From an uncultured bacterium (lineage in GTDB: Bacteria; Planctomycetota; UBA1135; GCA-002686595), in the NCBI GenBank assembly GCA_938083085.1, contig CALLKX010000012.1, positions 113,761 through 177,760 of the forward strand: a stretch of 64,000 nucleotides of DNA, written 5' to 3'. This document shows positions 17,707-53,578 of this stretch, in pieces (the first letter of the stretch is position 1; each line of letters starts with the position of its first letter). Made by a program: the position numbers and the translations under genes. Under the pieces are notes generated by a model that saw nothing but the letters and a program-made list of their open reading frames with translations, made no database searches and was not told the DNA's origin.

Positions 17707-18792
17707 ATGAGATTCAAGTCCATCCTGGGAATCGCTCTGATTCCCATGGTCGCCTACGCGGCCAACCCCGTCGTCGGGGAGGCGCCCGCTGCCATGGCAG
17801 CCGCGCCCTCCATCGACGACTTCACCGCCCTCGACGAGGAATTCGACACGGCGCTCGTTGAGTACACCAAGGAGCTCAAGGCCGCCGACAAGGCGCAGCG
17901 CCGCGAGCTCCGGGCGAACTCCCCGATCAAGCTCTACTGGCCGCGCTTCGAGGCCATGTCCAAGGCCGGCGAGGGCCGCGCGACGCTCTGGCTCGTGGAG
18001 CACATCAAGGAGAACCGCGACGTCCGCTCGAAGGAGCGCGGCGCAGTGCTCACGCCGCTGTTCAAGTCGATCATCGACAACCACGCGGACGCCGAGTGGT
18101 TCACGAGCGCCGTCAAGAGCCTCGCGGCCAACAAGAAGTACGTCGGGGCAGACGAGACGGTGGCCATGCTCGACAAGGCGGCCAAGACCGCCAAGTCGGA
18201 CAACGCCAAGGCCGCCTCGCTGTTCTTCGCAGCCAACATCCTCGCGGACAGCGACCCCGCTCGGGCCGAGAAGCTGATGGCCGAGATCGGCGAGAAGTAC
18301 TCGAACACCGTGTACGGCACCGCCGCCCGCGCCTCCAAGGCAACCCCCGAGGACTCCGAGGTCGGCAAGGTCGCTCCCACCTTCGTGGGCGAGACGATCG
18401 ACGGCTTCCAGTTCTCCATCGAGGACTACCGCGGCAAGGTCGTGGCCCTCGATTTCTACGGGTTCTGGTGACCCCCCTGCAGGCGCGGCATGCCGCACCT
18501 TAAGACGCTCGTTGAGCGTCACGAAAACGACCCCTTCGCACTCATCGGAATCAACACTGGCGACGAGCCAGACGCCTACCACGAAGGCGTCAAGGAGTTC
18601 GGCCTCACCTGGCTGAGCGCCTTCCAGGGCCAGGCCATGACGCCGATCTCGGACCTCTACAAGGTCCGGGGCTATCCCACCTATCTCGTGCTCGATACCG
18701 ACGGCACCATCGCCTACCGCGGCCACAGCGGCACCGAGATCGACGCGGTCGTCGCCGATCTCCTCGCCAAGGCCAAGGCCAAGGACAAGTAG
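17707..18792 (+). CDS. TlpA/ResA-like thioredoxin-fold protein, predicted selenoprotein (Sec at TGA 18469-18471)
   Basis: The frame reads 254 codons, a TGA, then 106 more codons to TAG, giving 361 aa if TGA encodes selenocysteine (U255). Residues 1-19 are a signal peptide (MRFKSILGIALIPMVAYA). Residues ~35-210 are a helical domain. From 218 a TlpA/AhpC-TSA thioredoxin fold begins (GKVAPTFVGETIDG, GKVVALDFYGFW). The redox motif reads W-U255-P-P-C258-R, where family members have W-C-x-x-C. After it the fold continues without interruption, including the cis-proline segment VRGYPTYLVLDTDG. The frame, motif position and intact downstream half argue against a pseudogene. A protein ending at the TGA would lack the whole active site. 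It is six bases upstream of the di-heme peroxidase gene, suggesting a periplasmic redox operon. Likely a periplasmic disulfide reductase, for example in cytochrome c maturation. Confidence 0.9.
18481..18500 (+). promoter_or_regulatory. Candidate SECIS hairpin after the TGA of the TlpA-like gene
   Basis: The RNA can fold as AGG, C, GCGG, loop CAUG, CCGC, A, CCU, with one C-A mismatch. The apex begins 18 bases after the TGA, similar to the E. coli fdhF spacing. The loop lacks the GGU of classical elements unless the G-C pair closing it opens. A second perfect hairpin (GACGCTC, GTT, GAGCGTC; 18504-18520) lies further on and could take part. The fold is less convincing than the one in the dsbD-like gene. 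Confidence 0.5.
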
Positions 18793-18798
18793 CGAGAT

Positions 18799-19818
18799 AT
18801 GGGAGACCGTGGAATCAGAGCGGGGCGCCTCGGCTGGCTGGCCCTCCTGCCAGTCCTCGTCGCGGCGCAGCTCGCGCAGGACGACGAAGCCCCCCCTCTG
18901 ATCCCACGGGACTCCCTCCCGACCCCCTTCGTGCGGACCGCGCCCCTCGGCGTGGAAGAGCTCGCGGAGGGGTTCGGGGCCTCCCAGGAGGTCTTCGACC
19001 TGGGCCGCCGGCTCTTCTTCGACCCGGTCCTGTCCCCGCTCCGATCGGTGTCCTGTGCGTCTTGCCATCAGCCCGAGCTCGGCTTCGCGGACAACCGCAA
19101 GCTCTCTCGCGGGATCGAGGGCTACCTGACCCTTCGCAACGCCCCCTCGCTCCTCAACAAGGGGCTCAGCGAGAAGGTCCTTTGGGACGGCCGGGCGGCG
19201 ACCCTCGAGGATCAGGTCCTCATGCCGATCGAGAACCCCGAGGAGATGGGGCTGGGCAAGGCTGCGGCGGTGAACCGCCTCTCGAGCGACCCGTCCTACG
19301 CGGCGGAGTTCCAGAAGGCCTTCGGGCGAGAGGTGGACGACGCGGCCCTCGCCGCGGCGCTGGCTGGCTTTGTCCGCGGGCTGACGGCTGGCGATTCCCC
19401 GGTGGACCGCTTCCGCGACGGAGACGTCGAGGCCCTCTCGGCCGATGAGGAGGCGGGACTCTGGATCTACGAGGGCCGCGGCCGCTGCTGGCGGTGCCAT
19501 AACGGCCCGAACTTCAGCGACGAGTCGTTCCACAACACCGGCGTCGGCGCCATCGAAGGTGTGCCGGAGCCGGGCCGGTTCGCGATCACCGGCGAGGACG
19601 GGGACCAGGGGCGCTTCCGAACCCCCGGACTCCGCATGTTGACCAAGACGGCGCCCTACATGCACGACGGGAGCCTTGGGACTCTCGCCGAGGTGGTCGA
19701 GTTCTACCGCGACGGCGGCAACGCGAACCCCCACCTCTCCGACCGCATGGGCAAGATCGAGCTGACCGACGAAGAGGCCGCGCAGCTCGTGGCCTTCCTC
19801 GAGGCGATGTCCCGCTGA
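18799..19818 (+). CDS. Di-heme cytochrome c peroxidase (CcpA/MauG family)
   Basis: The 339 aa periplasmic protein has an N-terminal signal peptide (residues ~1-25, RLGWLALLPVLVAAQLA). There are two heme c attachment motifs: CASCH at 86-90 and CWRCH at 230-234. The region LFFDPVLSPLRSVSCASCHQPELGFADNRKLSRGI is characteristic of bacterial di-heme peroxidases, as are the later SFHNTGVG and FRTPGLRMLTKTAPYMHDGSLGTL segments, where the Met and His ligands are expected. It reduces H2O2 with electrons from small cytochromes, or, in MauG-like members, oxidises a protein partner. It starts six bases after the selenoprotein stop and ends eight bases before the next gene, so the three are an operon. Confidence 0.93.
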   Translation: MGDRGIRAGRLGWLALLPVLVAAQLAQDDEAPPLIPRDSLPTPFVRTAPLGVEELAEGFGASQEVFDLGRRLFFDPVLSPLRSVSCASCHQPELGFADNRKLSRGIEGYLTLRNAPSLLNKGLSEKVLWDGRAATLEDQVLMPIENPEEMGLGKAAAVNRLSSDPSYAAEFQKAFGREVDDAALAAALAGFVRGLTAGDSPVDRFRDGDVEALSADEEAGLWIYEGRGRCWRCHNGPNFSDESFHNTGVGAIEGVPEPGRFAITGEDGDQGRFRTPGLRMLTKTAPYMHDGSLGTLAEVVEFYRDGGNANPHLSDRMGKIELTDEEAAQLVAFLEAMSR

Positions 19819-33346: not shown

Positions 33347-33592
33347 GGTCTGCGGGTATCGTGCTCTCCACTTTGTCGGAGGCTGGAGGTTCTTGCCATG
33401 AGCGTTGGCTGCAAGGATCTTGATAGAGGGACGTTCCAGGTCCGCAAGAGCCCACTCCGTGCCCGCCAGAGAGGCCAAAAGACCCTAGTCCTGGGACGGG
33501 AGCCGGTCACGGTTTCGCGGCTGCCTGCTAACTTCTCCCCGCCCCCTCTCCCGCCAACCCCGGCGCGAGACGGCACCGATCCAGGACCGAAG

Positions 33593-36151
33593 ATGTCTCG
33601 ACTGCTCTCCCTACTCCTCGTCGCGCTCGCGACGCTCGTCCCCGCGAGCGCCCAGTCCGTCAAGGTCAAGCTCTTCTCGAAAGCCGCCGGCGACGACGTG
33701 CTCGTGGCGATCCAGATCCGGCCGTCCTTCGACTGTTGGGTCTATGACCAGGGGGACCCTAGCGAGGTCGGGGGGCTGCCGACCACGGTGACCCTCGGGG
33801 AGCTCGAGGGCGCGGAGTGGACCGAGGTCTGGTTCCCCGAGCCCAAGGTGAAGCCCGACGAGGGCTTCGGCCCGGCGCGAGTCTTCGACAAGAAGACGTA
33901 TCTCTTCGCCGCAGCCCGTGGCGCCGCGGCCGCCGGCGTCGACGCCGGCGCGGTGGGCGCCCTGGTCGGGGGGCAGGTGTGCGACGAGAACCAGTGCCTC
34001 CCCTTCGACGAGGACCTCGAGACCCTCGGGGCGGGCCCGGAGTCGGTCTGGGAGGGCTTCCCCGAGTCGCTGCTCGCCGAGCCCGAGGAGGACCCCCTGA
34101 GTTGGAGCCCTGACTTCGGCGACGAGGCGGCGGCGGCGCGGGCGTTCGCGAGGGTGCTCGACGGAGACGACGGCGAGGTCGTCGAGCTCGTGGTGCAGGT
34201 GGCGACGCCCGAGCACTGGCACATGTACCACGGCCCCACCGCCGAGGACATGGGCCCGGGGCTCGGGACTCCGACCACGGTCACCGTCGAGGGAGGCAAC
34301 GTGGACTGGGACGACGAGGTCCGGTACCCCGAGCCCTTCCGCTACGTCCAGGACGCCGAGAAGGAGGAGTGGCTCTGGGCCCACGAGGGCCTCTTCCACT
34401 TCGCCCTCCGCGGCGAGGCCTTCGACGAGTTCGACCCGGGGGATGTCGAGGTCAGCCTCGACGGCCAGTCCTGCGACGAGGGTGCCTGCCTCCCGGTGGG
34501 ATTCTCCGGCATCGAGGTCGTGGGGGCTGGTTCGGAGGCTCTCTTCGCGGCGGCGTTCGCCACCTGGACCCTCCCGCAGGTGGCCAGCGGCGTCGCGGTG
34601 CCGGACATGGGATCAGGCGCTGTGGCCGGAGCCGACGCAGCTACTGGCACCGACACTGGCACTGGCACCGAGGTGGAGGTCGACGCCGAGGCGGTCGTCG
34701 ACGCGGCGGAGTCGACGCCCACGATCGAGGCCACGGCGGTCGTCCGCGAGAAGCGCTCCTTCGGCCAGGAGACCGAGAGCGAGGGCCTGCTCGAATTCAT
34801 CCTGCTCGCCATCGGCGCGGGGCTCTTCACGCTGCTGATGCCCTGCACCTACCCGATGATTCCCATCACGATCTCGTTCTTCACCAAACAGGCGGACGAG
34901 CGGGGCGGCAACGCGCTCCTGCTGGCGACGGTGTACGGGCTCGGGATCGTCGTGATGTTCGTGCTGTTGGGGGTCCTCGCCGGGCCCCTGCTGGTGCCCT
35001 TCGCCACGCACTACGTGACGAACCTGTTCATCGGCGTCCTGTTCGTGGTCTTCGCCCTCGCGCTCTTCGGAGCGATCACGCTCAACCCGCCCCAGTTCCT
35101 CATGGGCGCCGCGGGCAAGGCCAGCGGCACGGGCGGGATCTACGGCGTGTTCCTCATGGGCCTGACCCTGGTGATCACCAGCTTCACCTGCACGGGCCCC
35201 TTCGTCGGCACGCTGATCGCCGCCGGCGCCAGCGGCGGCGTGATGCGCATCGTGATCGGCATGGGGGTGTTCGGCGCGACCATGGCGGCGCCGTTCGTGC
35301 TCCTCGCGTTGATCCCCGGGCGCCTCAGCGCGATCCCCTCGGCGGGCGGGTGGATGAACACGCTCAAGGTCTTCATGGGGTTCGTCGAGCTCGCGGCGGC
35401 GCTGAAGTTCTTCTCCAACGCGGACATCGCCCTGCAGGCCGGTTGGCTGCCGCGCGAGGTCTTCCTGATGATGTGGGCGGTCATCGGCCTCGCCGCGGCC
35501 ATGTACCTCTTCGGCCGTATCAACCTGAAGGGCGAATCCCCTGACGGCGAGATCGGCCCCGGGCGCCTCTGCGGCGGCCTGGTGACCCTGATCGGCTCGG
35601 CCTACTGCTTCATGGGCGTCCTCGGGTACCACCTCGACGAGACCATCATGTCGGCCATGGCGCCGCCGCCCGAGTACTCCCGGGGGCTCGTGGAGACCCA
35701 CAAGGCCGAGGTCGTCAGCAGCGCTGGCAGCCTCGCCCTCCCCGCGGGCGTCAAGCGCCAGGGTGGCTCGCTGGTGGTGGTGGACGACTACGACCTGGCC
35801 CTGAAGGTCGCGCGAGAGCGCGGGCTGGGGGTCCTGGTGAACTTCACCGGTCACACATGAGTGGTCTGCCGCAAGATGGAGGTCTCCATCTTTCCCAAGC
35901 CTGAAGTCCGCGCACTCAAGCAGCGCTGGGTCGAGGCCCGGCTCCACTCGGACGCCCACGACCTCGCGCTCCGCGAGCGCATCGCGGGCCTGATCCAAAC
36001 CGTCGCGGGCAGCCCCGCTCAGCCCATCTACGTGGCGGTGGACCCCACCTCAGAGGAGGAGCTCGGCCGCTTCCAGGGTGGGACCATCAAGGACTGGTCG
36101 CCCTTCGTCGAGTTCATGACGGTGGTCACGAAGGACCTCGAGGCCCGCTGA
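33593..36151 (+). CDS. dsbD: DsbD-type thiol:disulfide interchange protein, predicted selenoprotein (Sec at TGA 35858-35860)
   Basis: Carries electrons from cytoplasmic thioredoxin across the membrane to periplasmic partners. From ATG 33593 the frame gives 755 codons, a TGA, then 96 codons to the true stop: 852 aa with U756. Residues 1-21 are a signal peptide. Two DsbD-alpha-like domains follow, with Cys pairs C130/C135 (QVCDENQCLPF) and C294/C299 (QSCDEGACLPV). A polytopic beta domain (~390-700) has the redox cysteines C418 (LMPCTYPMIPIT) and C533 (TSFTCTGPF). The C-terminal thioredoxin domain has F-T-G-H-T-U756-V-V-C759-R-K-M-E, where relatives have T-C-x-x-C-R. Conserved sequence continues (IFPKPEVRALKQRWVEARLH). 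Termination at the TGA would delete the gamma active site. A SECIS-like hairpin lies at 35873-35892. The alpha domain is duplicated. Confidence 0.93.
35873..35892 (+). promoter_or_regulatory. SECIS-like hairpin after the TGA of the DsbD-like gene
   Basis: A perfect eight-base-pair stem, AAGATGGA with TCCATCTT, encloses the loop GGTC. The apex therefore reads A-GGUC-U, the hexamer I recall at the apex of the E. coli fdhF SECIS. The loop starts 21 bases after the TGA, close to the fdhF spacing of about 18-20. The bulged U of the E. coli stem is absent. It lies wholly inside the coding frame, as bacterial SECIS elements do. Confidence 0.8.
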
Positions 36152-36183: not shown

Positions 36184-38715
36184 CTACTGGGCCACGCCCG
36201 TCACGTTGATCGTGAACGGCGACGGCGCGTTCACGGCGTCGTGCTCCACGTCGAGCGTGGCGTTCTTCACGCCCGCGCCGCTGCGCGGCGCGAAGCGCAG
36301 GCGGTACTGGATGGTGTCCCCCGCCTCCATGGTCGCGTCGCCCAGGCAGCTGGCGTCCACCCGGCTCCGCATGATGTTGGAGACCTGCGGGTGGAACCGG
36401 AGGTCGATGCTGTTCATGCCGCCGCAGGAGTGGCAATAGCTCATCAGCGTGCCCAGGCTGCAGGCGGTGCCGCCGGTGCAGTTGGTGGTGCACGTGTCGA
36501 TGGGCGGGCAGTACTCGTGGGTGTGCTCGGCCCCGAAGTTGTGCCCCAACTCGTGGGCCACCACCACGAAGTCCCAGGTGAGGCTCCCGGAGTTGCCGGT
36601 CCAGCTGCCCCAGTTGATGTTCCCGTTCATGTTCCCGCTCACCCCGTAGGCGAAGTTCGGGCTGCACAGCACGTTCACATACGCGATGCCGCCGCCGAGG
36701 TCCGCGCCGGACATGAAGTGCGCGAGGTCGGCGGAAACGGGCCACCCTGAGCTGTTCCAGCTGCTCCGAAATTCGCTCAGCAGCGCGCCGGCGCTGGCGC
36801 CGACGTCGGGCGCGGTCCAGGGGTCGGCGGAGGTGGAGTGGAGGCCGATGTAGGCGATTGTGAGGGTCGTCTGGACGTGCTCGAAGTACACGTCGCTGAT
36901 GGCAGCGATGAGGCCCGTGACGTAGGCCGTGGCGTCGGGGGCGTTCCCGAACTTCTGGAAGAACTGCCAGTCCGTCTCGATGGCGAGGCGGCACGCGGCG
37001 ACGGTCACCAGGCCCGAGGTCGGCGGGTCCTCGCCGCCAGGGAGGGCGCCGGGTGCTCCGCCAGCGGCGCCCTGGAAGGCCGACTGAGAGGGGAGGAGCG
37101 CGCCAGGCGGGAGCTCCATGCCGCTGCACAGGGGCGGGCGCGCGCCGGGGGCGAGGGCCAGCAGGTCATCCTCGTGGATGAGGCGGCAGGTAGCGGCGGC
37201 CTCGGGGGTCGCGACGGTCTCGGTGGTGAGGTGAATGAAGCGCCCGTCCTCAAACGGCAGCTCGATCCAGCCCTCGGGCCCGGCCTCGCGCAGGGCGAGG
37301 AAGACGCGGCTACCGGGGAGCTCCAGGGCCCGCCCGCTCCAGGTGGAGAGGTCCCCCAGGACGGCGTGGAGGCCCCCCGCGACGGGCGCGCCGTCCAGGG
37401 CGAGCACGGCGTCTCTCGCGATCGGCAGGGGGATCCGGTCGAGCTCCAGGGTGACGTCGCCGCCCCCGGGCACGGGAAAGCCGTGCAGGCGGACGTGGTC
37501 GAAGTACTGCAGGTCAGCGAGGCTGGCGGCGTCCACCGACACCTCGATGCCGGGGCGCGCCGTGGCCGCGGGCAGCCCGAGTGCGGCAGCGCGTACGAAG
37601 GGCGCGGCCAGGTCGACGGTCTCTCCTGGGGCGGACATGGACGCCACGACCATCTCGCCGTTCTCGAAGCTGGCGGCCTCGATCTCCAGGGAGAAGTCGG
37701 TCGAGTTCGTCCCGCCGAAGGTCGGCTGGCCGAGGAGCATGTCCGCGCCGCCCTGGTTCGCGAGGACCATGAGCGTGCCGACGCTCGCGCCGCCCTCGTT
37801 GGGCATGGCGCCGAGGTCCACGGTGTCTCCGGACAGGAGAGTGGTCTCGACCCCGGTGGTCGGCCCGTGGCTCGCCCCGAAGAGGGGGATGGGCGCCCCC
37901 TCGTCGTCGACGATCGTGAGTACGTGCTCGGCGGGACCACCAAGAGCAAGGCGTGAGAGGTCGCTCCCCGAGAGGTTCAGGCGGACCGTCTCCGGCCCCT
38001 CCGGGAGGGCGTCATCGAGGACGTCCACGGTGACGGTGCGCGTGGTCCCCGAGGGGGTGCCCGCGCTGTACTGGACCGCGGCGGGCGCGACCGCCTGGTA
38101 GTCGGCGGTGGAGGTCGCGGTCCCGGCGCCGCCGTCCACGGCGAGGAGGTCGATGTCAAAGGCCAGGGTCGCGCCGGCGGAGAGGACGAGCTCCACGTCC
38201 ATGCTGTAGCTCGCTGTGGACTCGTTCGGCGTGAGGCTGGTGGGCTGCACGAAGCGCACGTCAGCGCTCTCGGCGTCGATGAGGCTGAGCAGGGTCTGGG
38301 CGGTGCTCCCGAGGGAGGCCCCTGACGCGTCGGTGAGGATCAGCTGGACGGTCTCGGTCGCTCCCTCGGCGAGGTTGTCCCCGAGGGCGGTGACTTGCAC
38401 GAGGGCCGTGGCGCCGCTCGTGGAGCCGGCCGGAAAGACCACGTCTGCGGCGGTGAAGGGCGCGTAGTCGGTCCCGCTGGTGGCGGAGCCGGACTGTCCG
38501 TCGGAGACGGTGACGGAGACGGGCTGGGGGAGGGCGTTGAGGTCGGTGGTCAGCTCGACGGCGATGAACAGCGCCCCCTCGTCTTCCCCGTGACTGGAGG
38601 CTCCCGTGACGAAGCCCACGGTCGTCTCCGGTCCGGAGACCTTGACGCCCTCCATGCCGCACGCTGCGAGCCCCAGGGCGCCGGCGACAGCCAGGATCCG
38701 AATTCGATGGGTCAT
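36184..38715 (-). CDS. Metalloprotease lipoprotein with Calx-beta domains
   Basis: The 843 aa protein has a lipoprotein signal (AVAGALGLAAC, Cys 19), so it is membrane-anchored on the periplasmic side or surface. Residues ~30-140 and ~150-255 resemble two Calx-beta repeats (ETVQLILTDASGASLGS; LPEGPETVRLNLSGSDLS). An ASH/Hydin-like segment follows (~280-350). The peptidase domain has H721-E-L-G-H-N-F-G-A-E-H (HEXXHxxGxxH), the metzincin zinc signature of reprolysin-like peptidases, preceded by the characteristic strand region YVNVLCSPNFAYGV. Cysteine pairs after it (YCPPIDTCTTNCTGGTAC) suggest disulfides. The C-terminal ~60 residues (DTIQYRLRFAPRSGAGVKNA) are another ASH-like domain. Its start codon is preceded by a hairpin at 38717-38745. 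Confidence 0.88.
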   Translation of the reverse strand: MTHRIRILAVAGALGLAACGMEGVKVSGPETTVGFVTGASSHGEDEGALFIAVELTTDLNALPQPVSVTVSDGQSGSATSGTDYAPFTAADVVFPAGSTSGATALVQVTALGDNLAEGATETVQLILTDASGASLGSTAQTLLSLIDAESADVRFVQPTSLTPNESTASYSMDVELVLSAGATLAFDIDLLAVDGGAGTATSTADYQAVAPAAVQYSAGTPSGTTRTVTVDVLDDALPEGPETVRLNLSGSDLSRLALGGPAEHVLTIVDDEGAPIPLFGASHGPTTGVETTLLSGDTVDLGAMPNEGGASVGTLMVLANQGGADMLLGQPTFGGTNSTDFSLEIEAASFENGEMVVASMSAPGETVDLAAPFVRAAALGLPAATARPGIEVSVDAASLADLQYFDHVRLHGFPVPGGGDVTLELDRIPLPIARDAVLALDGAPVAGGLHAVLGDLSTWSGRALELPGSRVFLALREAGPEGWIELPFEDGRFIHLTTETVATPEAAATCRLIHEDDLLALAPGARPPLCSGMELPPGALLPSQSAFQGAAGGAPGALPGGEDPPTSGLVTVAACRLAIETDWQFFQKFGNAPDATAYVTGLIAAISDVYFEHVQTTLTIAYIGLHSTSADPWTAPDVGASAGALLSEFRSSWNSSGWPVSADLAHFMSGADLGGGIAYVNVLCSPNFAYGVSGNMNGNINWGSWTGNSGSLTWDFVVVAHELGHNFGAEHTHEYCPPIDTCTTNCTGGTACSLGTLMSYCHSCGGMNSIDLRFHPQVSNIMRSRVDASCLGDATMEAGDTIQYRLRFAPRSGAGVKNATLDVEHDAVNAPSPFTINVTGVAQ

Positions 38716-43087: not shown

Positions 43088-45064
43088 ATGCCTTCATCCT
43101 TCTATTCCGCCCTCTCCGGGATGCGATCGCACCAGCAGTGGATCGACGTCATCGGTAACAACCTCGCCAACCAGAACACCCCCGGCTACAAGAAGAGCCG
43201 AGCGGTGTTCGCGGACAACTTCTCACGCAACTTCAGGTTCGCGAGCGGTCCGCGCAGCGGCGTCGGCGGGATCAACGGCATGCAGGTCGGCTACGGCGTG
43301 GGCCTTGCCAGCGTCGATCAGACCTTCACTCAGGGGGCGCTCTCGGACACGGGGCGCGTCTTCGACCTGGCGCTCGAGGGCGGGGGGTTCTTCGCGCTGG
43401 ACAGCGGGGATGGTCGCAGCTTCACGCGGGTCGGTACCTTCGGCCTCGACTCCCAGCAGAACCTCGTGGACCAGGGCTCGGGGATGCGGGTCTTGGACCC
43501 CAGCGGCTCGGCCATCGCGCTCGATGTGGCCTCGCTCTTCCCCCCGCAGGTCACCACTGACGTGACCATGAAGGGCAACCTCTCGGCGGTGGTCGATGGC
43601 CCCCTCGCGGAGCTGCTCTCCGCCAACTCCTCGTTCTCCATGGGGACGCCCGCTGAGGTCGCAAGTGCGGGAACCAGCGGTACCTATAACGTCTCAGCTG
43701 TCGGCGGCGCGCCGGGCGACATCGTCGCGATGGAGCTGATCGCGAACGGCGGAGTACCCCAGCAGGTGATTGTTGCGAGCGATCCTGCGACGGGAGATGT
43801 GACCTCCACCGCGATCGCCGCGGCCATCAACGCGCTGCAGGATGTGACGGCCACCGTGAACGGAGCCGGGCAGATCGCGATCTCAACGAACCGCAAGGGT
43901 GGATCGTTCTCGATCGACCTGAACGCGCCCAACGGCGTGGCGGACCTGACGCAGATGGTGGGCTTCTCCACGACCGTTCAGAGCGGCACGGAGACTCCGA
44001 TCCCGAGCGACCTGAGTACGGCCAACCTGAACGACCTCACGGCCAACCTCGCCGAATACGTGGACGGTGACCAGATTCAGGTCGTCGGTGAGGACACCGA
44101 TGGATCTCCAGTCTCCGGGACCTTCACCTTCGGCGCGGCCAACGACGGCACGACGATGCAGGACCTCGTGAGCTACCTCGACTCGCTTTACACCGACGCT
44201 GCGGTGTCGGTGGACGGCTCGGGGCGCCTTGTCGCGACGGCTCAGTCTGCGGGCGAGGCGAACCTCCTGCTCTCGCTGTCGGACGGGTCGTCGAACACGG
44301 GCGGGACCGACTTCAGCGCCTACGCGATGTCGGTGACGACCAACGGGACGGGCCCGGATACGGTCACGACCTCCACCGAGATCTTCGACGCAGCCGGTGT
44401 GGCTCACTCGGTGACCATGCGCTACGAGCGGCAGGCGGACCTGACCTGGAATCTCTATGCCGACCTCGATCCCAGTGAGGGGGTGGTCGGCAAGGGCAGC
44501 GCCGCCGACCCGATCACAGGGATCACCTTCACCCCGGACGGGGCCCCCACGGGGCTCGGCTCGGTGGACTCCCGGATGCAGCTCCAGTTCACCGGCCAGC
44601 CCCTCCAGGAGGTCTCCGTCGACCTCGGGGCGGACGGCTCGGTCGACGGTCTGACCCAGTTCGGCAGCGCCGGGTCGGCTTATGTCTACGACCAGAACGG
44701 GTTCGGAGACGGTGAGCTCGCCAACATCACGGTCTCGACTACAGGTCAGATCGACGGCTTCTACTCCAACGGTCAGTCGCGCTCCCTGGGAGCTCTGGGG
44801 GTCGTGACCTTCCAGAACGACGAGGGCCTGCGGAGCGCAGGCAACAACATGTTCGAGGAGACCCCCAACTCGGGGGAGGCGCGCTACGGCGCGGGCAACA
44901 TCCGCAAGGCGGGCGCGGTGATCTCCGGCTCGCTGGAGAACTCGAACGTGGACACCGCGGAGCAGTTCGTGCGCCTCATCGAGGCCCAGCGCGGCTATCA
45001 GGCCAACGCCCGGGTGGTCTCCACTCAGGATGAGGTCCTCGCCGAGACGGTGAACCTGGTCTGA
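43088..45064 (+). CDS. flgE: Flagellar hook protein FlgE
   Basis: The main hook subunit (658 aa). The N-terminal rod motif SFYSALSGMRSHQQWIDVIGNNLANQNTPGYKKSR and the C-terminal SLENSNVDTAEQFVRLIEAQRGYQANARVVSTQDEVL (each in part) form the D0 helices that pack in the hook. Between them are large surface-exposed domains (about 100-560) rich in Thr, Ser and Gly, making the protein longer than the ~400 aa of E. coli FlgE but similar to hook proteins of several other phyla. It is the last gene of the fliK-flgD-flgE set and is followed by a strong hairpin. Confidence 0.95.
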   Translation: MPSSFYSALSGMRSHQQWIDVIGNNLANQNTPGYKKSRAVFADNFSRNFRFASGPRSGVGGINGMQVGYGVGLASVDQTFTQGALSDTGRVFDLALEGGGFFALDSGDGRSFTRVGTFGLDSQQNLVDQGSGMRVLDPSGSAIALDVASLFPPQVTTDVTMKGNLSAVVDGPLAELLSANSSFSMGTPAEVASAGTSGTYNVSAVGGAPGDIVAMELIANGGVPQQVIVASDPATGDVTSTAIAAAINALQDVTATVNGAGQIAISTNRKGGSFSIDLNAPNGVADLTQMVGFSTTVQSGTETPIPSDLSTANLNDLTANLAEYVDGDQIQVVGEDTDGSPVSGTFTFGAANDGTTMQDLVSYLDSLYTDAAVSVDGSGRLVATAQSAGEANLLLSLSDGSSNTGGTDFSAYAMSVTTNGTGPDTVTTSTEIFDAAGVAHSVTMRYERQADLTWNLYADLDPSEGVVGKGSAADPITGITFTPDGAPTGLGSVDSRMQLQFTGQPLQEVSVDLGADGSVDGLTQFGSAGSAYVYDQNGFGDGELANITVSTTGQIDGFYSNGQSRSLGALGVVTFQNDEGLRSAGNNMFEETPNSGEARYGAGNIRKAGAVISGSLENSNVDTAEQFVRLIEAQRGYQANARVVSTQDEVLAETVNLV

Positions 45065-45105
45065 TCGAGGCCGGGGCGCCCCAGGGGGCCCTGACATGAG
45101 GAATA

Positions 45106-45144
45106 AGGCGGGGGCCGGAGCGCATCGCGCCCCGGCCCCCGCCT
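45106..45144 (+). terminator. Terminator-like hairpin after flgE
   Basis: Perfect 13-base arms AGGCGGGGGCCGG and CCGGCCCCCGCCT around a 13-base loop, 41 bases beyond the flgE stop. There is no T tract. It would end the fliK-flgD-flgE message before the methyltransferase gene. Confidence 0.6.
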
Positions 45145-45197
45145 CCTGATCACCGCGACGCTGCGCCCTGACCCGCCCCGCTCGCTAGAGTCTCTCC

Positions 45198-45914
45198 GTG
45201 AACCTCGAAGCACGACTCCCTGACCTGGCCGGCGGCTGGGCCCGCCAGTCCCATGAGGTCTCGACGGGCCTGACGGTGGAGCTGTTCGTCCCCGCAGCGC
45301 CCGACGCGCTCCTGGACGACGATGCGGTGGTCGCCAGGAACGAGTTCAACGACTCCATGCCGTACTGGGCCTGGCTGTGGGACTCGGCGCCTGCCATGGC
45401 GCGTCGAATTGCAGCCTCGCCGCCCGCCAGCGGCGCGCGCATCCTGGAGCTTGGAGCAGGGCTCGGGCTGGTCGGGATCGCCGCCGCCCTCGCCGCAGAG
45501 GGACCAGCGGAGCTGACGCTCTCCGACCATGACCCCCTCTCGCTGGCGGTCCTGCCCATCAACGCTGCCCTCAACGGGCTCGAGGAGGCGAAGGCCTGGA
45601 ACCTCGACTGGCGGGAGCTCGAGCGGTCCGAGTCAGGGGTCTTCGATCTCCTGGTGGGCTGCGATGTTGCTTATGAAGCGAGGCTGCAGGAGCCCCTGCT
45701 GGACGTCGTCGAGCGCTACATGGCGCCAGGGGGGGCAGCGCTCTTCGCTGATCCGGGCCGGACGCGGCTCCCGGGCTTCCTGAGGCGGGCCCGAGCGCGC
45801 GGGTTGGCCGTGGAGACCGAGGATGCGGAGGGGCGGCCAGCCGACCCCGAGGCGGGCGCCTTCCGCCTCGTGCGGATCGTTCGGGACCCGGAACTTCTTT
45901 CCGGCGCTCGCTGA
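45198..45914 (+). CDS. Class I SAM-dependent methyltransferase (METTL/Methyltransf_16-like)
   Basis: The 238 aa soluble protein starts with GTG. The SAM-binding motif I is ARILELGAGLGLVGIAAALA, and the acidic motif II follows in ELTLSDHDPL. The upstream segment FNDSMPYWAWLWDSAPAMARRI and the post-motif FDLLVGCDVAYEARLQEPLLDVVERYMAPGG (in part) are like lysine or protein N-methyltransferases of the METTL/Nnt1 type. It sits between flgE and flgF, in a flagellar cluster but outside both sigma-54 transcripts. A flagellar substrate is possible but unproven; a general protein methyltransferase is as likely. Confidence 0.8.
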   Translation: MNLEARLPDLAGGWARQSHEVSTGLTVELFVPAAPDALLDDDAVVARNEFNDSMPYWAWLWDSAPAMARRIAASPPASGARILELGAGLGLVGIAAALAAEGPAELTLSDHDPLSLAVLPINAALNGLEEAKAWNLDWRELERSESGVFDLLVGCDVAYEARLQEPLLDVVERYMAPGGAALFADPGRTRLPGFLRRARARGLAVETEDAEGRPADPEAGAFRLVRIVRDPELLSGAR

Positions 45915-45978
45915 CCCACGGCGGGAAGTTCTTTCCGGATTGGCGCGCCTGAACGGCGCTCAGGGGTGCTGAGCGAGG

Positions 45979-45995
45979 TTGGCATCCCGCTTGCG
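45979..45995 (+). promoter_or_regulatory. Sigma-54 (-24/-12) promoter of the flgF operon
   Basis: TTGGCAT, five bases, TTGCG keeps the GG (45981-45982) and GC (45993-45994) separated by ten bases. The transcript start falls near 46005-46006, immediately before the flgF ATG at 46007, so flgF would be leaderless. Confidence 0.75.
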
Positions 45996-46006
45996 TAGGA
46001 ACCGGC

Positions 46007-46702
46007 ATGAACGTCGGGCTCTATCGAACGGTTGCCGCCATGAGCGCGAACCAGCAGCGCGTCGAGATCATCAGCTCGAACATCGCCAACGCGGACGCGA
46101 CGGGTTTCAAGCGGATGCTCCACGTCGCCCACGGCGTCGAGAACTGGGCGGACGATGCGGGCCACACGCAGGTTGCTGCGGCCTCGCGCCTCGACATGAG
46201 CCAAGGCGTGCTGCAGAGCACCGGCAACACGCTTGACCTCGCTCTGGAAGGCCCGGGCTTCTTCGTCCTTGAGGGCACAAGCAGCGAGATCTTGACGCGC
46301 AACGGCGAGTTCTCCCTGACCGAGAGGGGCGTCCTTGTGAACCCCAGCGGCTTCCCCGTCCAGTGGGCCGGAGGGCGCGGGATCATCGACCCCCTCAAGG
46401 GCGCCGTCCGCATCAGCGGGGACGGGGTGGTCGACCAGGACGGGCTCCCGGTTGGCCGGCTCCGCATTGTGAACGTCGACGGGCCCCGCTCCATCGAGCC
46501 CGACGAGTTTGGCGGGTTCAGTCTCCGTGATGGAGCGGAGTACGTCGAGGCCAACGCCACCGTGAGCCAGGGATTCCTGGAGCGCGCGAACCTCGAGACC
46601 ATCGATGAGCTCGTCGAGCTCATCGCTGCCCAGCGGTCCTTCGAGTCCGCATCTCAGGCATTCAAGACCATCGACCAGAGCTTCAGCCGCCTCTATCGCT
46701 GA
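46007..46702 (+). CDS. flgF: Flagellar basal-body rod protein FlgF
   Basis: Proximal rod component, 231 aa. The N-terminal motif MNVGLYRTVAAMSANQQRVE and IISSNIANADATGFKR define the flagellar rod/hook family, and the C-terminal QGFLERANLETIDELVELIAAQRSFE region the D0 coiled-coil. The ATG is fixed by the conserved LY..AA.M pattern. It is the first gene of a long operon (flgF-G-A-H-I-J-N-K-L and two more) driven by the sigma-54 promoter ending 12 bases upstream. Confidence 0.9.
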   Translation: MNVGLYRTVAAMSANQQRVEIISSNIANADATGFKRMLHVAHGVENWADDAGHTQVAAASRLDMSQGVLQSTGNTLDLALEGPGFFVLEGTSSEILTRNGEFSLTERGVLVNPSGFPVQWAGGRGIIDPLKGAVRISGDGVVDQDGLPVGRLRIVNVDGPRSIEPDEFGGFSLRDGAEYVEANATVSQGFLERANLETIDELVELIAAQRSFESASQAFKTIDQSFSRLYR

Positions 46703-46733
46703 GGCCGGGCAGGACCCTAGAGACCCAAGCACC

Positions 46734-47519
46734 ATGATTCGTTCACTCTACACCGCGGCCTCCGGCATGAAGGCCCAGCAGTTCCAGGTGGACACGATCG
46801 CGAACAATATCGCGAACGTGAACACGAGTGGCTTCAAGAAGAGCCGTCTCTCCTTTCGCTCGCTGCTCTACCAGACCTATCGCGAACCCGGTCTGCCCCT
46901 GGCGAACAACCAGAACGACGTGACCGGCCTCCAGATTGGCTCGGGTACGGAGGTGTCTGGCTCCCGCAAGGAGATGCAGCAGGGCGTCCTCGAACTCACC
47001 GGTAACTCCCTCGACCTCGGTGTCGAGGGAGCCGGCTTCTTCGAGATCGAGCTCCCGAACGGCGAGCAACGCTACACCCGGAACGGCACGTTCCGTCAGG
47101 ACGCCAACGGGCGCCTCGTGACGGCCGAGGGTTACCTCCTGAGCGACCAGGTTCAGATCCCCCCGGACAGCCAGGGCGTCTCGATCTCGGCCGATGGCGA
47201 GGTGTACTCCCTCGGTGAGGGCAACGTCCAGAACCAGATCGGCACGATCCGCCTGCACGTGTTCCCGAACCCGACAGGCCTCCGGGCCATGGGCGGCAAC
47301 TACTTCGCTGGCACACCGTCGTCCGGTGAACCCGCCGCGACTCAGCCGACCACGGCCGGCGCCGGGATGGTCAAGCAGGGCTACCTCGAGCGCTCCAACG
47401 TCGAGACCGTCGACGAGCTCGTATCGCTGATCGTCGCCCAGCGCAACTACGAGGTGAACAGCCGGGCCATCCGCGTCTCGGACGAGATGCTCCAGCAGGT
47501 CAACCAGCTCATCCGCTGA
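46734..47519 (+). CDS. flgG: Flagellar distal rod protein FlgG
   Basis: The 261 aa length is the family norm. N-terminal MIRSLYTAASGMKAQQFQVD and TIANNIANVNTSGFKKSR, central LDLGVEGAGFFEIELPNGEQ and C-terminal QGYLERSNVETVDELVSLIVAQRNYEVNSR (in part) are diagnostic. It forms the distal rod that passes through the L and P rings encoded just downstream. The start is the ATG at 46734, 31 bases after flgF; the longer upstream frame is shadow sequence. Confidence 0.96.
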   Translation: MIRSLYTAASGMKAQQFQVDTIANNIANVNTSGFKKSRLSFRSLLYQTYREPGLPLANNQNDVTGLQIGSGTEVSGSRKEMQQGVLELTGNSLDLGVEGAGFFEIELPNGEQRYTRNGTFRQDANGRLVTAEGYLLSDQVQIPPDSQGVSISADGEVYSLGEGNVQNQIGTIRLHVFPNPTGLRAMGGNYFAGTPSSGEPAATQPTTAGAGMVKQGYLERSNVETVDELVSLIVAQRNYEVNSRAIRVSDEMLQQVNQLIR

Positions 47520-47525
47520 TCCAAC

Positions 47526-48458
47526 ATGATTACCACGACACTACTTCTACTCTGTGCGGGAGGCGTCTCCATCGTCCTCCCGTCCGCGGCCACCTCATCC
47601 GGCATGGAGATCTCGGTCGACGAGATCGCCCAGGTCGAGGGCGAGGACGCCGACGAGGTCGAGCGGGTCCGAGCCGCGTCGCTCGGGTACGCCCCGGCGC
47701 CCGGTTACCACCGGTACCTGCGGGCGGACCTCCTCAAGGCCTCTCTGCGTCAGTCGCTGCCGGACATTGAGATCACGGTCAAGGGTGCGCCTCGATGCCT
47801 CGTGACCTCCGCCACAACGACCGTCCCCGGGGTGCGACTCACGGCCGAGGCGAGCCAGGCTCTCCGGGCGGCGCTGACTGGGATGGACGCCGAGGCCAGG
47901 CCCCTGATGGACCTCCCCGACCTCGTCTTGCCCGCGTCGGACGCTGAGCCGCAGCTGCGGACCTCCTTCCGCGTCGATCGGGTCTTCCCCGGGAAGATCC
48001 AGGTCCCCGTCGAGGTCTGGATCGGTGAGCGGATCTACCGCACGGTCCAGGTCCGCTTCGAGGTCACGGTCTGGAAGCGCCAGGCGGTCCTCAAGCAGGC
48101 GATCCCCGCGGGCACCGAGCTCTCACCTGGCATGTTCAAGGTCGTCCGAACCAAGGTGAAGTCCGGGTCGGGGCTCCAAGCTCTTGAGCTGCACGAGATC
48201 CCTGGCTCCGTCGCCAACCGAGCCATGGCCGCCGGCGCGTCGCTGGGTGAGCGAGACGTCAAGCGCATGACGCTGGTCCGGCGCGGGGACCTTGTCCAGG
48301 TGGCCGTGAAGAACCGCGGCGTCACGGTCAAGGACGTGGGCCAAGCCCAGTCCAACGGTCGCATGGGCGAGAGGGTCCGCGTCCAACTCCGCTCGTCCGG
48401 CGTCGAGCTCCTGGCGGTCGTCCGCGGCCCCAAGCTCCTCGAGGTGAAGATCAAATGA
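47526..48458 (+). CDS. flgA: Flagellar P-ring assembly chaperone FlgA
   Basis: The periplasmic chaperone helps FlgI assemble the P ring. The 310 aa protein has a signal peptide (MITTTLLLLCAGGVSIVLPS). The C-terminal SAF/ChapFlgA domain is visible: VLKQAIPAGTELSPGMFKVV, then VANRAMAAGASLGERDVKRM, and LVRRGDLVQVAVKNRGVTVK. The N-terminal ~130 residues are less conserved. Its last four bases overlap flgH (ATGA), and it lies six bases after flgG. Confidence 0.92.
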   Translation: MITTTLLLLCAGGVSIVLPSAATSSGMEISVDEIAQVEGEDADEVERVRAASLGYAPAPGYHRYLRADLLKASLRQSLPDIEITVKGAPRCLVTSATTTVPGVRLTAEASQALRAALTGMDAEARPLMDLPDLVLPASDAEPQLRTSFRVDRVFPGKIQVPVEVWIGERIYRTVQVRFEVTVWKRQAVLKQAIPAGTELSPGMFKVVRTKVKSGSGLQALELHEIPGSVANRAMAAGASLGERDVKRMTLVRRGDLVQVAVKNRGVTVKDVGQAQSNGRMGERVRVQLRSSGVELLAVVRGPKLLEVKIK

Positions 48459-49078
48459 GCCTCCTCCGAATCACACATGTCGCTCTCACCCTCGTCCTCC
48501 TGATGGGCGTGGCAGATGCCCAGCGGCGGGGTTCGATCTACGACCCCACCCGCGGCCCGGTCTCCCCGATCTCCGACAAGACCGCCAACCGCGTGGGCGA
48601 CCTGCTCACGGTGGTGATCCGGGAGAACCAGGACCTCAAGAACGAGGAGAAGACCGACCTCGCGAAGAACAGCACGCTGAACTACCAGCTGGTGGACTTC
48701 AACGTGGCGCCTGACGCCTTCAATCCGCTGCCGACCATGCGGACGACCAAGTCCGACACCTTCGGCGGCACCGCGAACTACGAGAAGAGTGGCGCCTTCG
48801 AGGCTCGTCTGACCGCGATGGTCGTGGACCGGCTTCCCAACGGGAACCTTGTCGTGGAGGGCCGACGCGAGATTCGCATCGACGAGGAGCGCAAGGTCCT
48901 CGAGTTCCGCGGCGTCGTGCGCCGCTACGACGTCCGTCGCGACAACACCGTCCAGTCCGAGCTCGTCGCGGACGCCTACGTCTCCTACTCGGGGAGCGGA
49001 CCGCTCACCCGAACGAATGAACGCCGCGGCCTCGCCAAGTGGCTCCACAGCGCCGTCGACTGGGTCTGGCCCTTCTGA
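48455..49078 (+). CDS. flgH: Flagellar L-ring protein FlgH, not a lipoprotein
   Basis: The 207 aa outer-membrane L-ring subunit is identified by GDLLTVVIRENQDLKNEEKT, then GRREIRIDEERKVLEFRGVV and AYVSYSGSGPL. The signal peptide (residues ~1-22, ALTLVLLMGVADA) ends in a signal-peptidase-I-like AxA site. The protein has no cysteine at all, whereas enterobacterial FlgH is a lipoprotein attached through a conserved lipobox Cys. How this ring is held in the outer membrane is therefore open. Overlaps flgA by four bases. Confidence 0.94.
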   Translation: MSLLRITHVALTLVLLMGVADAQRRGSIYDPTRGPVSPISDKTANRVGDLLTVVIRENQDLKNEEKTDLAKNSTLNYQLVDFNVAPDAFNPLPTMRTTKSDTFGGTANYEKSGAFEARLTAMVVDRLPNGNLVVEGRREIRIDEERKVLEFRGVVRRYDVRRDNTVQSELVADAYVSYSGSGPLTRTNERRGLAKWLHSAVDWVWPF

Positions 49079-49084
49079 TCTGCC

Positions 49085-50383
49085 ATGCGATTCTTCAACA
49101 TCATCTTCGCCCTGACCCTCACCGCCTCCGCGGGCGCTCAGGGCACCGTCCCGGCTACCGCCCCTGTTGACAGCTCGACCGCAGCTGGCGGCCAGGAGGG
49201 GAACCTCGCCACCGTGTTGCCCTTGGGCGGCGGTATCGAGGCCCCCACCCAACCCCAGGGCGTCTCGACCGCGAACTACTCGCGGACCGCACGGGTCCGG
49301 CCCATTTCGCGGACGGGCGGCAACTACGAGGCCAAGATCGCGTCGCCGCTCTCGAGCCTCTTTCGGGTCCGCGGTGTCCAGGAGAACGAAGTCAACGGCA
49401 TCGGCATCGTCATGGGGCTCGACGCGACCGGAGACAGCGGGCTTCTTGCCCCGCAGCTCCTGGCGAACAGCCTGTTGGCCTCCAACATCAACATTGACCC
49501 CAAGCTCCTCGCGACCTCGAGCATCGCGACGGTGCACGTGAAGGGTGTCATCCCGCACGGCGCGAAGCCGGGTACGCGAATGGACGTGATCGTCTCGACG
49601 CTTGGTGACGCAGAGAGCCTCTACGGCGGCAACCTGCTGATCACGGAGCTGATGGACATCGAGGGCAACAACGTCTATGCCACAGCGTCGGGATCGCTCA
49701 CAGTGGGCGGCTTCTTCGCCGCAGGGAGCGCGGCTTCGACCACCAAGAACCACGTCACGGTGGGCACCCTCGCCAACGCTGGTCGGGTGCAGATGGGGAT
49801 CGACGCCAGCGTCGTCAACGAGCACGGGTACATCTACCTCGACGCCAAGAACGGGCAGGGTTCGTTCGGGAACACCGTCCGCGCGACGGACGCGATCAAC
49901 CGTCTCTACCCGGAGACGGCACAGGTCTTGCCTGACGGGAAGTCCGTGCGATTCAAGGTCATGGATGGTGTCCCCGGTGAGAGCGTCGTCGCCTACCTCG
50001 ACAGCGCCATGCAGCTGGAGGTCGAGACGGACAACCTGGCCCGCGTCGTCATCAGCGAGCGCACAGGAGTGATCGTGATGGGCGGCAACGTCCGGCTCCG
50101 GCCTGGCGTGATTCAGCACGGCTCGATCATCGTGACCATCGCTGAGACCCCCGAGGTCAGCCAGCCGGCCGGCTTCTCGAACGGGGTGACCACCGAGGTC
50201 CCGCGCACCAATCTCAACGTCGTCGAGGGGGACGCGCCACTTGTCCTCATGGGCGGCGCCACCAGCCTCGAGGAGGTCGTGGAGGTGCTGAACGTCCTCG
50301 GGGCGACCCCGAGGGACATGATCGCCATCATGGAGTCGCTCGTCTCTGGCGGGCTGCTCGTCGCTGACCTCAAGAGGATGTGA
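49085..50383 (+). CDS. flgI: Flagellar P-ring protein FlgI
   Basis: The 432 aa periplasmic P-ring subunit has a signal peptide (RFFNIIFALTLTASAGA) and the conserved core from about residue 90: RVRGVQENEVNGIGIVMGLD, then ASNINIDPKLLATSSIATVH, GTRMDVIVSTLGDAESLYGG, and the C-terminal GATSLEEVVEVLNVLGATPRDM. The ~60 residue Ala/Gly/Pro/Thr-rich insert between signal and core is longer than in E. coli FlgI (~365 aa). The stop codon overlaps the next start by one base (TGATG). Confidence 0.96.
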   Translation: MRFFNIIFALTLTASAGAQGTVPATAPVDSSTAAGGQEGNLATVLPLGGGIEAPTQPQGVSTANYSRTARVRPISRTGGNYEAKIASPLSSLFRVRGVQENEVNGIGIVMGLDATGDSGLLAPQLLANSLLASNINIDPKLLATSSIATVHVKGVIPHGAKPGTRMDVIVSTLGDAESLYGGNLLITELMDIEGNNVYATASGSLTVGGFFAAGSAASTTKNHVTVGTLANAGRVQMGIDASVVNEHGYIYLDAKNGQGSFGNTVRATDAINRLYPETAQVLPDGKSVRFKVMDGVPGESVVAYLDSAMQLEVETDNLARVVISERTGVIVMGGNVRLRPGVIQHGSIIVTIAETPEVSQPAGFSNGVTTEVPRTNLNVVEGDAPLVLMGGATSLEEVVEVLNVLGATPRDMIAIMESLVSGGLLVADLKRM

Positions 50384-50751
50384 TGGAGCTTCACGCCGAG
50401 AACACAGGCGCCCTGACGGCGCGGAACGGCCTCATGGCAGGCCGGATCTCCCGGGTCGATAGGGGCGCGGACGCGCCCGACGTGGCTGCCAAGGAGATGG
50501 AGTCGCTCTTCGCGACGCTCCTGGTCACGGAGATGCGGAAGGGACTCGGCGAAGGGTTCTTCGGGACCGGCAAGGGGGCCGACACCTTCAACGGCTGGTT
50601 CGACGAGCAGCTCGGAGCTTCGATCGCGGATCAGGGCAACCTCGGCATCGGGGCTCAGGTGAAGGAGGGCATCATCCGTCAACAGGCCGCCGCCGCCGAG
50701 CAGGCGGCGCGGATGTCCGGTCAGCAGCCTGAGGGCGAGGTGGGGCAGTGA
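50383..50751 (+). CDS. flgJ: FlgJ-type rod-binding protein
   Basis: The 122 aa protein contains only the N-terminal rod-binding (Rod-binding, PF10135-type) domain: AKEMESLFATLLVTEMRKGLGEGFFGTGKGADTFNGWFDEQ (in part) is the family signature. The C-terminal muramidase of enterobacterial FlgJ is missing, so another lytic enzyme must open the peptidoglycan for the rod. The start is the ATG overlapping the flgI stop. The GTG at 50380 is the alternative. Its 3' end overlaps flgN. Confidence 0.9.
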   Translation: MELHAENTGALTARNGLMAGRISRVDRGADAPDVAAKEMESLFATLLVTEMRKGLGEGFFGTGKGADTFNGWFDEQLGASIADQGNLGIGAQVKEGIIRQQAAAAEQAARMSGQQPEGEVGQ

Positions 50752-51230
50752 GCGTCACGAGTCAATCGAACCTGGTGAACCGCCTGGTCGTGGCGATCCG
50801 TGAGGAGGTGGCCTCCCATCGCCGGATCCTCGAGCTGCTCACCGCTCAGGAGAACTCAATCCGCCAGCCCGCCAGCTCGGCGTTCAAGGCTGCGACGGAG
50901 GAGCTGGAGGTCCAGCTGAAGCGCAGCTCACAGCGCACTGCTCGGAGAGAGCGTGCCGTTGTCGCTCTGGCCGGCGAGTTCGGCGTCGCGCCCGCGGCAG
51001 CCACAGTGGGGAGCATGGTGGAGCGGCTCGGCGCGGAGGGGGAACTCCTCGCCGCCGAGCGCGCCCAGCTGATCGAGGTGAGCACCGAAGTCGGCCGCCG
51101 TAACCGTCGCATGGCGACGTTGGTGCGGCTCCACCGACAGGTCACGCGCGAGCTGATTCAGGTCGTCCTCGGTCCCGAGGACGGCGGAGACGTACACGCA
51201 GGCGGGAGCCTGATTGACGCAGAGGTCTGA
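50748..51230 (+). CDS. flgN: FlgN-like flagellar export chaperone
   Basis: The 160 aa alpha-helical protein (LVNRLVVAIREEVASHRRILELLTAQENSI; QVTRELIQVVL) has the length, coiled-coil character and gene position of FlgN, the cytoplasmic chaperone that holds the hook-associated proteins FlgK and FlgL before secretion. Both substrates are encoded immediately downstream. Sequence conservation in this family is low, so context carries much of the assignment. It overlaps flgJ by four bases (start GTG or ATG at 50748). Confidence 0.8.
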   Translation: MSVTSQSNLVNRLVVAIREEVASHRRILELLTAQENSIRQPASSAFKAATEELEVQLKRSSQRTARRERAVVALAGEFGVAPAAATVGSMVERLGAEGELLAAERAQLIEVSTEVGRRNRRMATLVRLHRQVTRELIQVVLGPEDGGDVHAGGSLIDAEV

Positions 51231-51231
51231 T

Positions 51232-53565: not shown

Positions 53566-53578
53566 GCGAGGAAAACAC

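Follow-up and report, generated by a model that had tools for sequence, protein, structure and literature searches.

DsbD is the electron gate from the cytosol to the periplasm, where it serves disulfide reduction and cytochrome c maturation. As our reference we take the E. coli protein (NF001419/PRK00293; PDB 1vrs and 1jpe) to consist of an alpha domain, a membrane domain and a C-terminal thioredoxin (gamma) domain with their redox cysteines, and we take the conserved domain cd02953 to be this gamma domain. The UxxC entry for the Thiol:disulfide interchange protein, PF13098, is said to go back to a 2004 paper. Trx-like 2 (thiol disulfide interchange protein, cd02953) figures as a UxxC family of 22 sequences in a 2008 survey of the Global Ocean Sampling set (PMC2398784, Table 2), so that selenocysteine (Sec) in a DsbD-gamma-type domain is not new. 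What the accessible part of that source describes is a domain-level metagenome family; for this family it names no taxon, places no SECIS and shows no full-length membrane DsbD. In the accessible part of a 2026 inventory of 119 selenoprotein families or subfamilies, the PF13098 protein appears with the motif UxxC and the representative WP_011366075.1 (PMC13188914, Table 1), TsoB (rhodanese/DsbD fusion-like, NF045694) stands under rhodanese-like proteins with two Sec in UxxxxU, and the table, in which these two come nearest to the window protein, has no entry for a full-length DsbD (PMC13188914).

Sec insertion in bacteria is described by a bSECIS model with G at loop positions 1 and 2, a stem of 4-16 bp, a spacing of 16-37 nt and an MFE of -7.5 or below; this spacing, also stated in the part of PMC10778597 available, is said to hold for most elements, and some do not fit (PMC13188914, in part). 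Selenoproteins are known in planctomycetes, six of them in one isolate according to the portion of PMC4807772 at hand. We found no description of a full-length DsbD selenoprotein in the literature covered, which included few subscription papers, and prior notice in the supplementary list of PMC4807772 is possible.

Here we analyse a window of 64,000 nucleotides from the genome of an uncultured planctomycete (contig CALLKX010000012.1; genome of 4.58 Mb in 111 contigs, 89.65% complete), in which a whole membrane hub of DsbD type is a predicted selenoprotein. Like Trx-like 2, it carries its predicted Sec first in the UxxC of a DsbD-gamma-type thioredoxin domain; its likeness to the PF13098 protein is one of name and UxxC motif, as listed in the table.

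Results

Architecture of the DsbD-type protein

The protein combines alpha-type domains, a DsbD_TM membrane domain and a C-terminal thioredoxin domain, with redox cysteines, or a Cys and the predicted Sec, in each (Table 1). An earlier note on this DNA had placed a TGA at the first Cys of a T-C-x-x-C-R motif, with all other redox cysteines intact and the frame continuing through the thioredoxin domain. The open reading frame bears this out: codon 756 lies in N-F-T-G-H-T-U-V-V-C-R, where it replaces the leading Cys of T-U-V-V-C-R; C130/C135, C294/C299, C418, C533 and C759 are all present; and 96 codons follow before the terminal stop. The frame is also open upstream of the start given in Table 1, up to an ATG at 33398, and we consider the downstream start, with its hydrophobic, signal-like N-terminus, the more likely one.

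Table 1. Positions, strand and details of the annotated features of the window.
Feature	Position	Strand	Details
DsbD-type gene	33593..36151	+	852 residues with Sec read at codon 756; stop TGA 36149-36151
In-frame TGA, predicted selenocysteine codon 756	35858..35860	+	from comparison across the order
First alpha-type (DsbD_N) beta-sandwich domain	33656..34027	+	about residues 22-145; pair C130/C135
Probable second alpha-type domain	34127..34528	+	about residues 179-312; pair C294/C299, both invariant in A1
Membrane (beta) domain	34781..35626	+	about residues 397-678; C418 and C533, both invariant in A1
C-terminal thioredoxin (gamma) domain	35753..36148	+	about residues 721-852; U756-V-V-C759
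Predicted SECIS hairpin	35873..35892	+	8-bp stem; GGUC tetraloop 35881-35884
Second predicted selenoprotein gene, TlpA/redoxin-like	17707..18792	+	TGA 18469-18471, W-U-P-P-C
Predicted hairpin after TlpA TGA	18504..18520	+	7-bp stem, GUU loop, 39 nt after TGA

Pfam matches cover DsbD_N, DsbD_TM (residues 402-607) and Thioredoxin_7, the last spanning codon 756 when this is read as Cys. Residues 179-312 have no Pfam match of their own; in the AF2 model their strand pattern repeats that of the first domain, which together with the invariant cysteine pair suggests a second alpha-type domain. The same model has helices at the membrane domain and places residue 756 immediately before the thioredoxin fold enters its first helix. 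Fold-search (VIA-align) rows span residues 16-149, with three rows at 721-852. Searched against PDB sequences, the single sequence matched 3f9u and 5vkv, and a profile built on the full alignment had no hit at E<=0.001.

Among NCBIfam models only TsoB and PRK00293 matched at E<=0.001, both far under their cut-offs. TsoB shares the membrane domain (106.4 bits against a cut-off of 805; best stretch residues 391-639) but differs in its two Sec residues, the window protein having one predicted Sec, which lies in a thioredoxin domain. The score for NF001419 was 94.6 bits, short of the cut-off of 330, and we therefore call the protein DsbD-type by architecture and not a member of that subfamily. It has the same alpha, membrane and thioredoxin domains as E. 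coli DsbD, with corresponding cysteines, but the E. coli protein has Cys where a Sec is predicted here, and the window protein adds the second alpha-type domain. Behind the gene, on the opposite strand (36184-38715), lies a gene with Calx-beta repeats and a reprolysin-type metallopeptidase domain, and a flagellar cluster with FlgE/FlgG-type, FlgI, FlgK and flagellin genes occupies 43088-54994.

TGA and cysteine codons at one site across the order

Of 151 genomes searched within the order, 145 gave a match, and one locus was taken from each of 130; the other 15 had matches weaker than about E 1e-58 or stopping before the site (for example G033, G052, G074 and G111). One locus, L131, was dropped because its contig ends before the site, and the 131 rows obtained (94 U, 37 C) became 129 on removal of a minus-strand row of L091, from another thioredoxin, and of a second domain in L135, both with C. 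At the 129 readable sites the codon is TGA in 94, TGC in 28 and TGT in 7, and nothing else. That only TGA or one of the two Cys codons (35 genes in total) occurs there argues that the TGA is not due to chance, as the earlier note had held, and supplies the homologues with U or C by which it had proposed to check its reading. In a quick FastTree built from all 129, the site itself being replaced by X, Cys rows are nested within Sec rows several times, and the Sec/Cys state changed at least nine times, at least eight of these changes being forced by starred branches. Coding sequence is conserved on both sides of the codon: a comparison of five close genomes (L021-L025) gives dN/dS values of 0.03-0.12 over the 100 codons before the TGA and 0.05-0.17 over 90 codons after it, so the sequence beyond the TGA is under purifying selection at the protein level.

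The window stems from a fragmented assembly, as do most of the genomes compared, so that a sequencing or assembly error might be suspected of having created the TGA. The same TGA, however, is seen in another 93 genomes from the order and in strain Pla86, whose chromosome is CP036296.1, and the probability of such an error is practically negligible; the earlier note's own concern, that the TGA might vanish on resequencing, is thereby answered.

A GGUC hairpin that accompanies the TGA

Downstream of the TGA the window gene has a predicted SECIS hairpin that starts 12 nt, and has its loop 20 nt, after the codon. With its GGUC loop, stem of 8 bp, 20-nt spacing and -13.5 kcal/mol for 45 nt from the TGA on, it agrees with the published bSECIS model. 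Across the order, 81 of 94 TGA genes have a predicted GGUC hairpin in the first 75 nt with a stem of 4 bp or more, compared with none of 35 Cys genes; after thinning to less than 85% nucleotide identity the counts are 66 of 76 versus 0 of 32. Synonymous resampling of the TGA genes over 200 rounds gave a mean of 8.1 and a maximum of 16 such hairpins in 94.

The loop distance in the 81 genes is +44 in 70, +20 in nine, +38 in one and +53 in one. Where GGUC lies at +44 (75 genes), the numbers of genes able to form each of the four inner pairs are 75, 70, 70 and 75, and three of these pairs vary by compensating types (C-G to A-U; G-C to A-U; C-G to A-U or U-A). All four form in 70 of the 75 (resampled mean 28.4, maximum 37) and in only one of the 35 Cys genes. 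The same genes preserve a proximal hairpin (+17 to +33) more often than their codons would predict; 53 of the 75 have it complete (resampled mean 31.6, maximum 37; Cys genes, 5 of 35). In the window's genus, whose nine genes (L021-L029) form one clade with support 100, GGUC sits at +20 in all nine, on the hairpin at the proximal place. Set against the +44 of 70 relatives, this suggests that the loop moved from the distal to the proximal hairpin in this genus. The window hairpin shares with the bacterial model the small loop starting G-G, a stem of at least 4 bp and a 20-nt spacing, whereas most relatives differ: 70 of the 94 TGA genes have the loop at 44 nt, outside the 16-37 nt, and this +44 class would be an exception to the spacing model.

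No GGUC hairpin with a stem of 4 bp or more is seen in the other 13 of the 94 TGA genes, but 11 of these have another G-G or G-U loop: five carry GGUCG or AGUUG at +44, another five a loop of CGUG-, AGGU- or CGUU-type at +23 to +26, and L147 has CGUGAC at +44. The remaining two of the 13, L082 and L084, show no convincing G-G/G-U loop hairpin. The protein seems to carry an imprint of the distal hairpin, at whose position P-A-V-A is encoded in 57 of 94 Sec forms versus one of 35 Cys forms; the RNA element thus appears to shape the protein sequence.

Overall folding energy is a weak discriminator, the folding of 48 nt being barely above synonymous expectation (mean z -0.88 for TGA genes, -0.32 for Cys genes). 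A long stem between the first 11 nt and positions 41-50, frequent in single-sequence folds, was dropped because it is paired less (0.34) than its synonymous control (0.41). At gathering score, Rfam matched no family in the whole window, and hence no SECIS family.

Spread beyond the order and shortened database entries

A scan of a genome collection for N-F-T-G-x-x-U-x-x-C-R-x-M-E yielded 105 stretches, whose titles, as labelled by submitters, read Planctomycet- or Phycisphaer- in 86, 'bacterium' only in 17, Bacillota in one and Proteobacteria in one; the last two are TGA-DsbD loci L163 and L207. A GGUC hairpin is present in 76 of the 105 loci, including that of strain Pla86 (L214, at +44), whose chromosome, CP036296.1, titled a complete genome, carries the TGA form. 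In a search of 294 genomes of the phylum, TGA-containing matches occurred in families outside the order, among the matches listed. The 23 TGA loci gathered there under 20 family codes all have the TGA at the identical motif position, and the GGUC form is seen in only 3 of them, while some G[G/U]-loop hairpin of at least 6 bp is found in 16 (resampled 6.8, maximum 11). Because these 23 loci and the 105 of the scan were picked for their TGA, they are uninformative on the ratio of TGA to Cys.

Of the nearest database proteins (best 120 of 360), 97 end just before codon 756, 19 have Cys there and 4 end elsewhere. P0089, the annotated Pla86 protein of 748 aa, listed under the name Engelhardtia mirabilis, stops in this way at N-F-T-G-H-T, directly before the TGA, in agreement with the DNA. 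Such entries are what an ordinary stop would give, with a shortened DsbD of two alpha-type domains and a membrane domain and a thioredoxin part that is a decayed remnant. We regard this as very improbable: purifying selection extends past the TGA (90 of the 96 codons were compared), the codon exchanges with Cys only, and the hairpin is kept in TGA genes and not in Cys genes. With the protein filed as shortened, the thioredoxin domain is instead lost from those annotations.

Selenocysteine machinery

The earlier note had made its reading hinge on the Sec machinery, and all four components are present in the window's genome: SelA (459.8 bits; cut-off 267.9), SelB (322.4 bits, or 344.6 with the neighbouring stretch; cut-off 242.25), SelD (327.2 bits; cut-off 125) and one tRNA-Sec above gathering score (69 bits; 47), with the anticodon UCA by ARAGORN. 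SelA adjoins SelD (L018, G000:C48), SelB lies on contig C14 and tRNA-Sec on contig C3. This SelD itself has one in-frame TGA, C-A-G-U-A-A-K, and UxxK is the Sec motif given for SelD in the part of PMC13188914 available. The searches for SelB and tRNA-Sec covered the window's own genome. SelA was followed across the order and is above the cut-off in 138 of 151 genomes (77 of 80 and 61 of 71). By hand tally it matches in 92 of 94 TGA genomes and in 31 of 35 Cys genomes, and is therefore no discriminator between them; SelA was not matched in the TGA genomes G140 (77% complete) and G094 (73% complete), and in G130, G086 and G092 it is only fragmentary.

This machinery also bears on whether UGA might be reassigned, for example to Trp, or be decoded as some standard amino acid by read-through. 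Either would leave the frame open across the TGA, as it is, but TGA is the stop in 11 of 14 window genes looked at, dsbD included, and the alternatives at the site are Cys codons only, never Trp. With SelA, SelB, SelD and tRNA-Sec at hand besides, we consider such decoding extremely unlikely.

A second candidate in the window

The second redox protein with a TGA that the earlier note had pointed to, a TlpA-like protein, is present and reads F-W-U-P-P-C at the site (Table 1). Homologous domains in genomes of the family (33 domains in 30 loci) have U in 30 and C in 3; a hairpin with a G-U/G-G loop 38-39 nt after the codon accompanies 24 of the 30 U domains and one of the 3 C domains in a hand count made without resampling control, a distance just beyond the published spacing. 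Six nucleotides behind this gene lies one for a di-haem cytochrome c peroxidase (CCP_MauG, 18799-19818). The window's genome has a second TGA-containing TlpA-like match (G000:C30:26933-27946, 34% identity), and two TlpA-like matches elsewhere, G025:C53:61510-62478 and G052:C22:200259-200768, carry two in-frame TGA codons and are possible double-Sec proteins.

Discussion

Using a combination of codon comparison, analysis of selection, RNA folding and searches for the Sec machinery, our work supports the reading of the DsbD-type gene as a selenoprotein gene. UGA stands at a Cys position, and a hairpin follows it in most UGA-type but no Cys-type relatives; we therefore predict, with a probability of about 0.95, that UGA 756 is read as Sec by SelB and tRNA-Sec, likely directed by the GGUC hairpin 20 nt downstream. 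To the earlier note, which had arrived at a selenoprotein from the DNA alone and is upheld by the codon exchange, the 3' conservation, the hairpin and the machinery, we add the hairpin, the distribution across the phylum, the shortening in databases and the fact that Sec had already been reported in DsbD-gamma-like sequences. What appears to be new is that the whole membrane hub is a predicted selenoprotein, and that the loop of its putative SECIS lies at +44 in 70 relatives and at +20 in the window's genus.

We propose that SelB with bound Sec-tRNA would attach to the GGUC loop and decode UGA 756, and that U756 and C759 would form the selenenylsulfide of the C-terminal thioredoxin domain. For the electron route we take E. 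coli DsbD as the model, and U756 to correspond to the first Cys of its gamma-domain CxxC, the residue through which that domain is joined to the alpha domain in a mixed disulfide; the title of PDB 1vrs names an alpha-gamma mixed-disulfide complex. Electrons would then pass from cytosolic thioredoxin to C418/C533 in the membrane, on to U756/C759, and from there to the disulfides C130/C135 and C294/C299 of the alpha-type domains and to periplasmic clients such as TlpA-type proteins, among which the TlpA-like protein of the window is a plausible candidate. The window's genome, at its 89.65% completeness, holds a single DsbD-type match, so that this reduction route would depend on selenium.

Where Sec is short, translation would halt after the membrane part and leave a protein without its thioredoxin domain. 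Termination at a Sec-UGA generally competes with SelB, and one may ask whether both products are made, with their ratio set by selenium supply as a selenium switch of envelope reduction. Such a dual product is compatible with Sec reading of UGA 756, and the short form would retain the alpha-type and membrane domains of the genome's one DsbD-type protein; with no sign of regulation in the sequence, we think this switch unlikely, and keep it as a tentative addition to the predicted Sec insertion.

For the RNA element itself we lean, with some reserve, towards a movable two-hairpin SECIS in planctomycetes, in which the GGUC loop recognised by SelB would lie on a distal hairpin at +44, beyond the accepted range, a conserved proximal hairpin would fold away the extra length, and the loop would have hopped to the proximal place (+20) in one genus. 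On this account the element would dictate the P-A-V-A stretch, and envelope reduction across much of the order would be selenium-dependent.

The 94 TGA and 35 Cys genes constitute a natural experiment on SECIS: since the GGUC hairpin is missing from all 35 Cys genes and relocated in one genus, the strictness with which SelB measures the distance from UGA to loop is directly testable, and selenoprotein searches confined to 16-37 nt could miss genes of the +44 class. For the organisms themselves, Sec at the DsbD thioredoxin site in 94 of the 129 genomes examined would tie the redox balance of the envelope to selenium.
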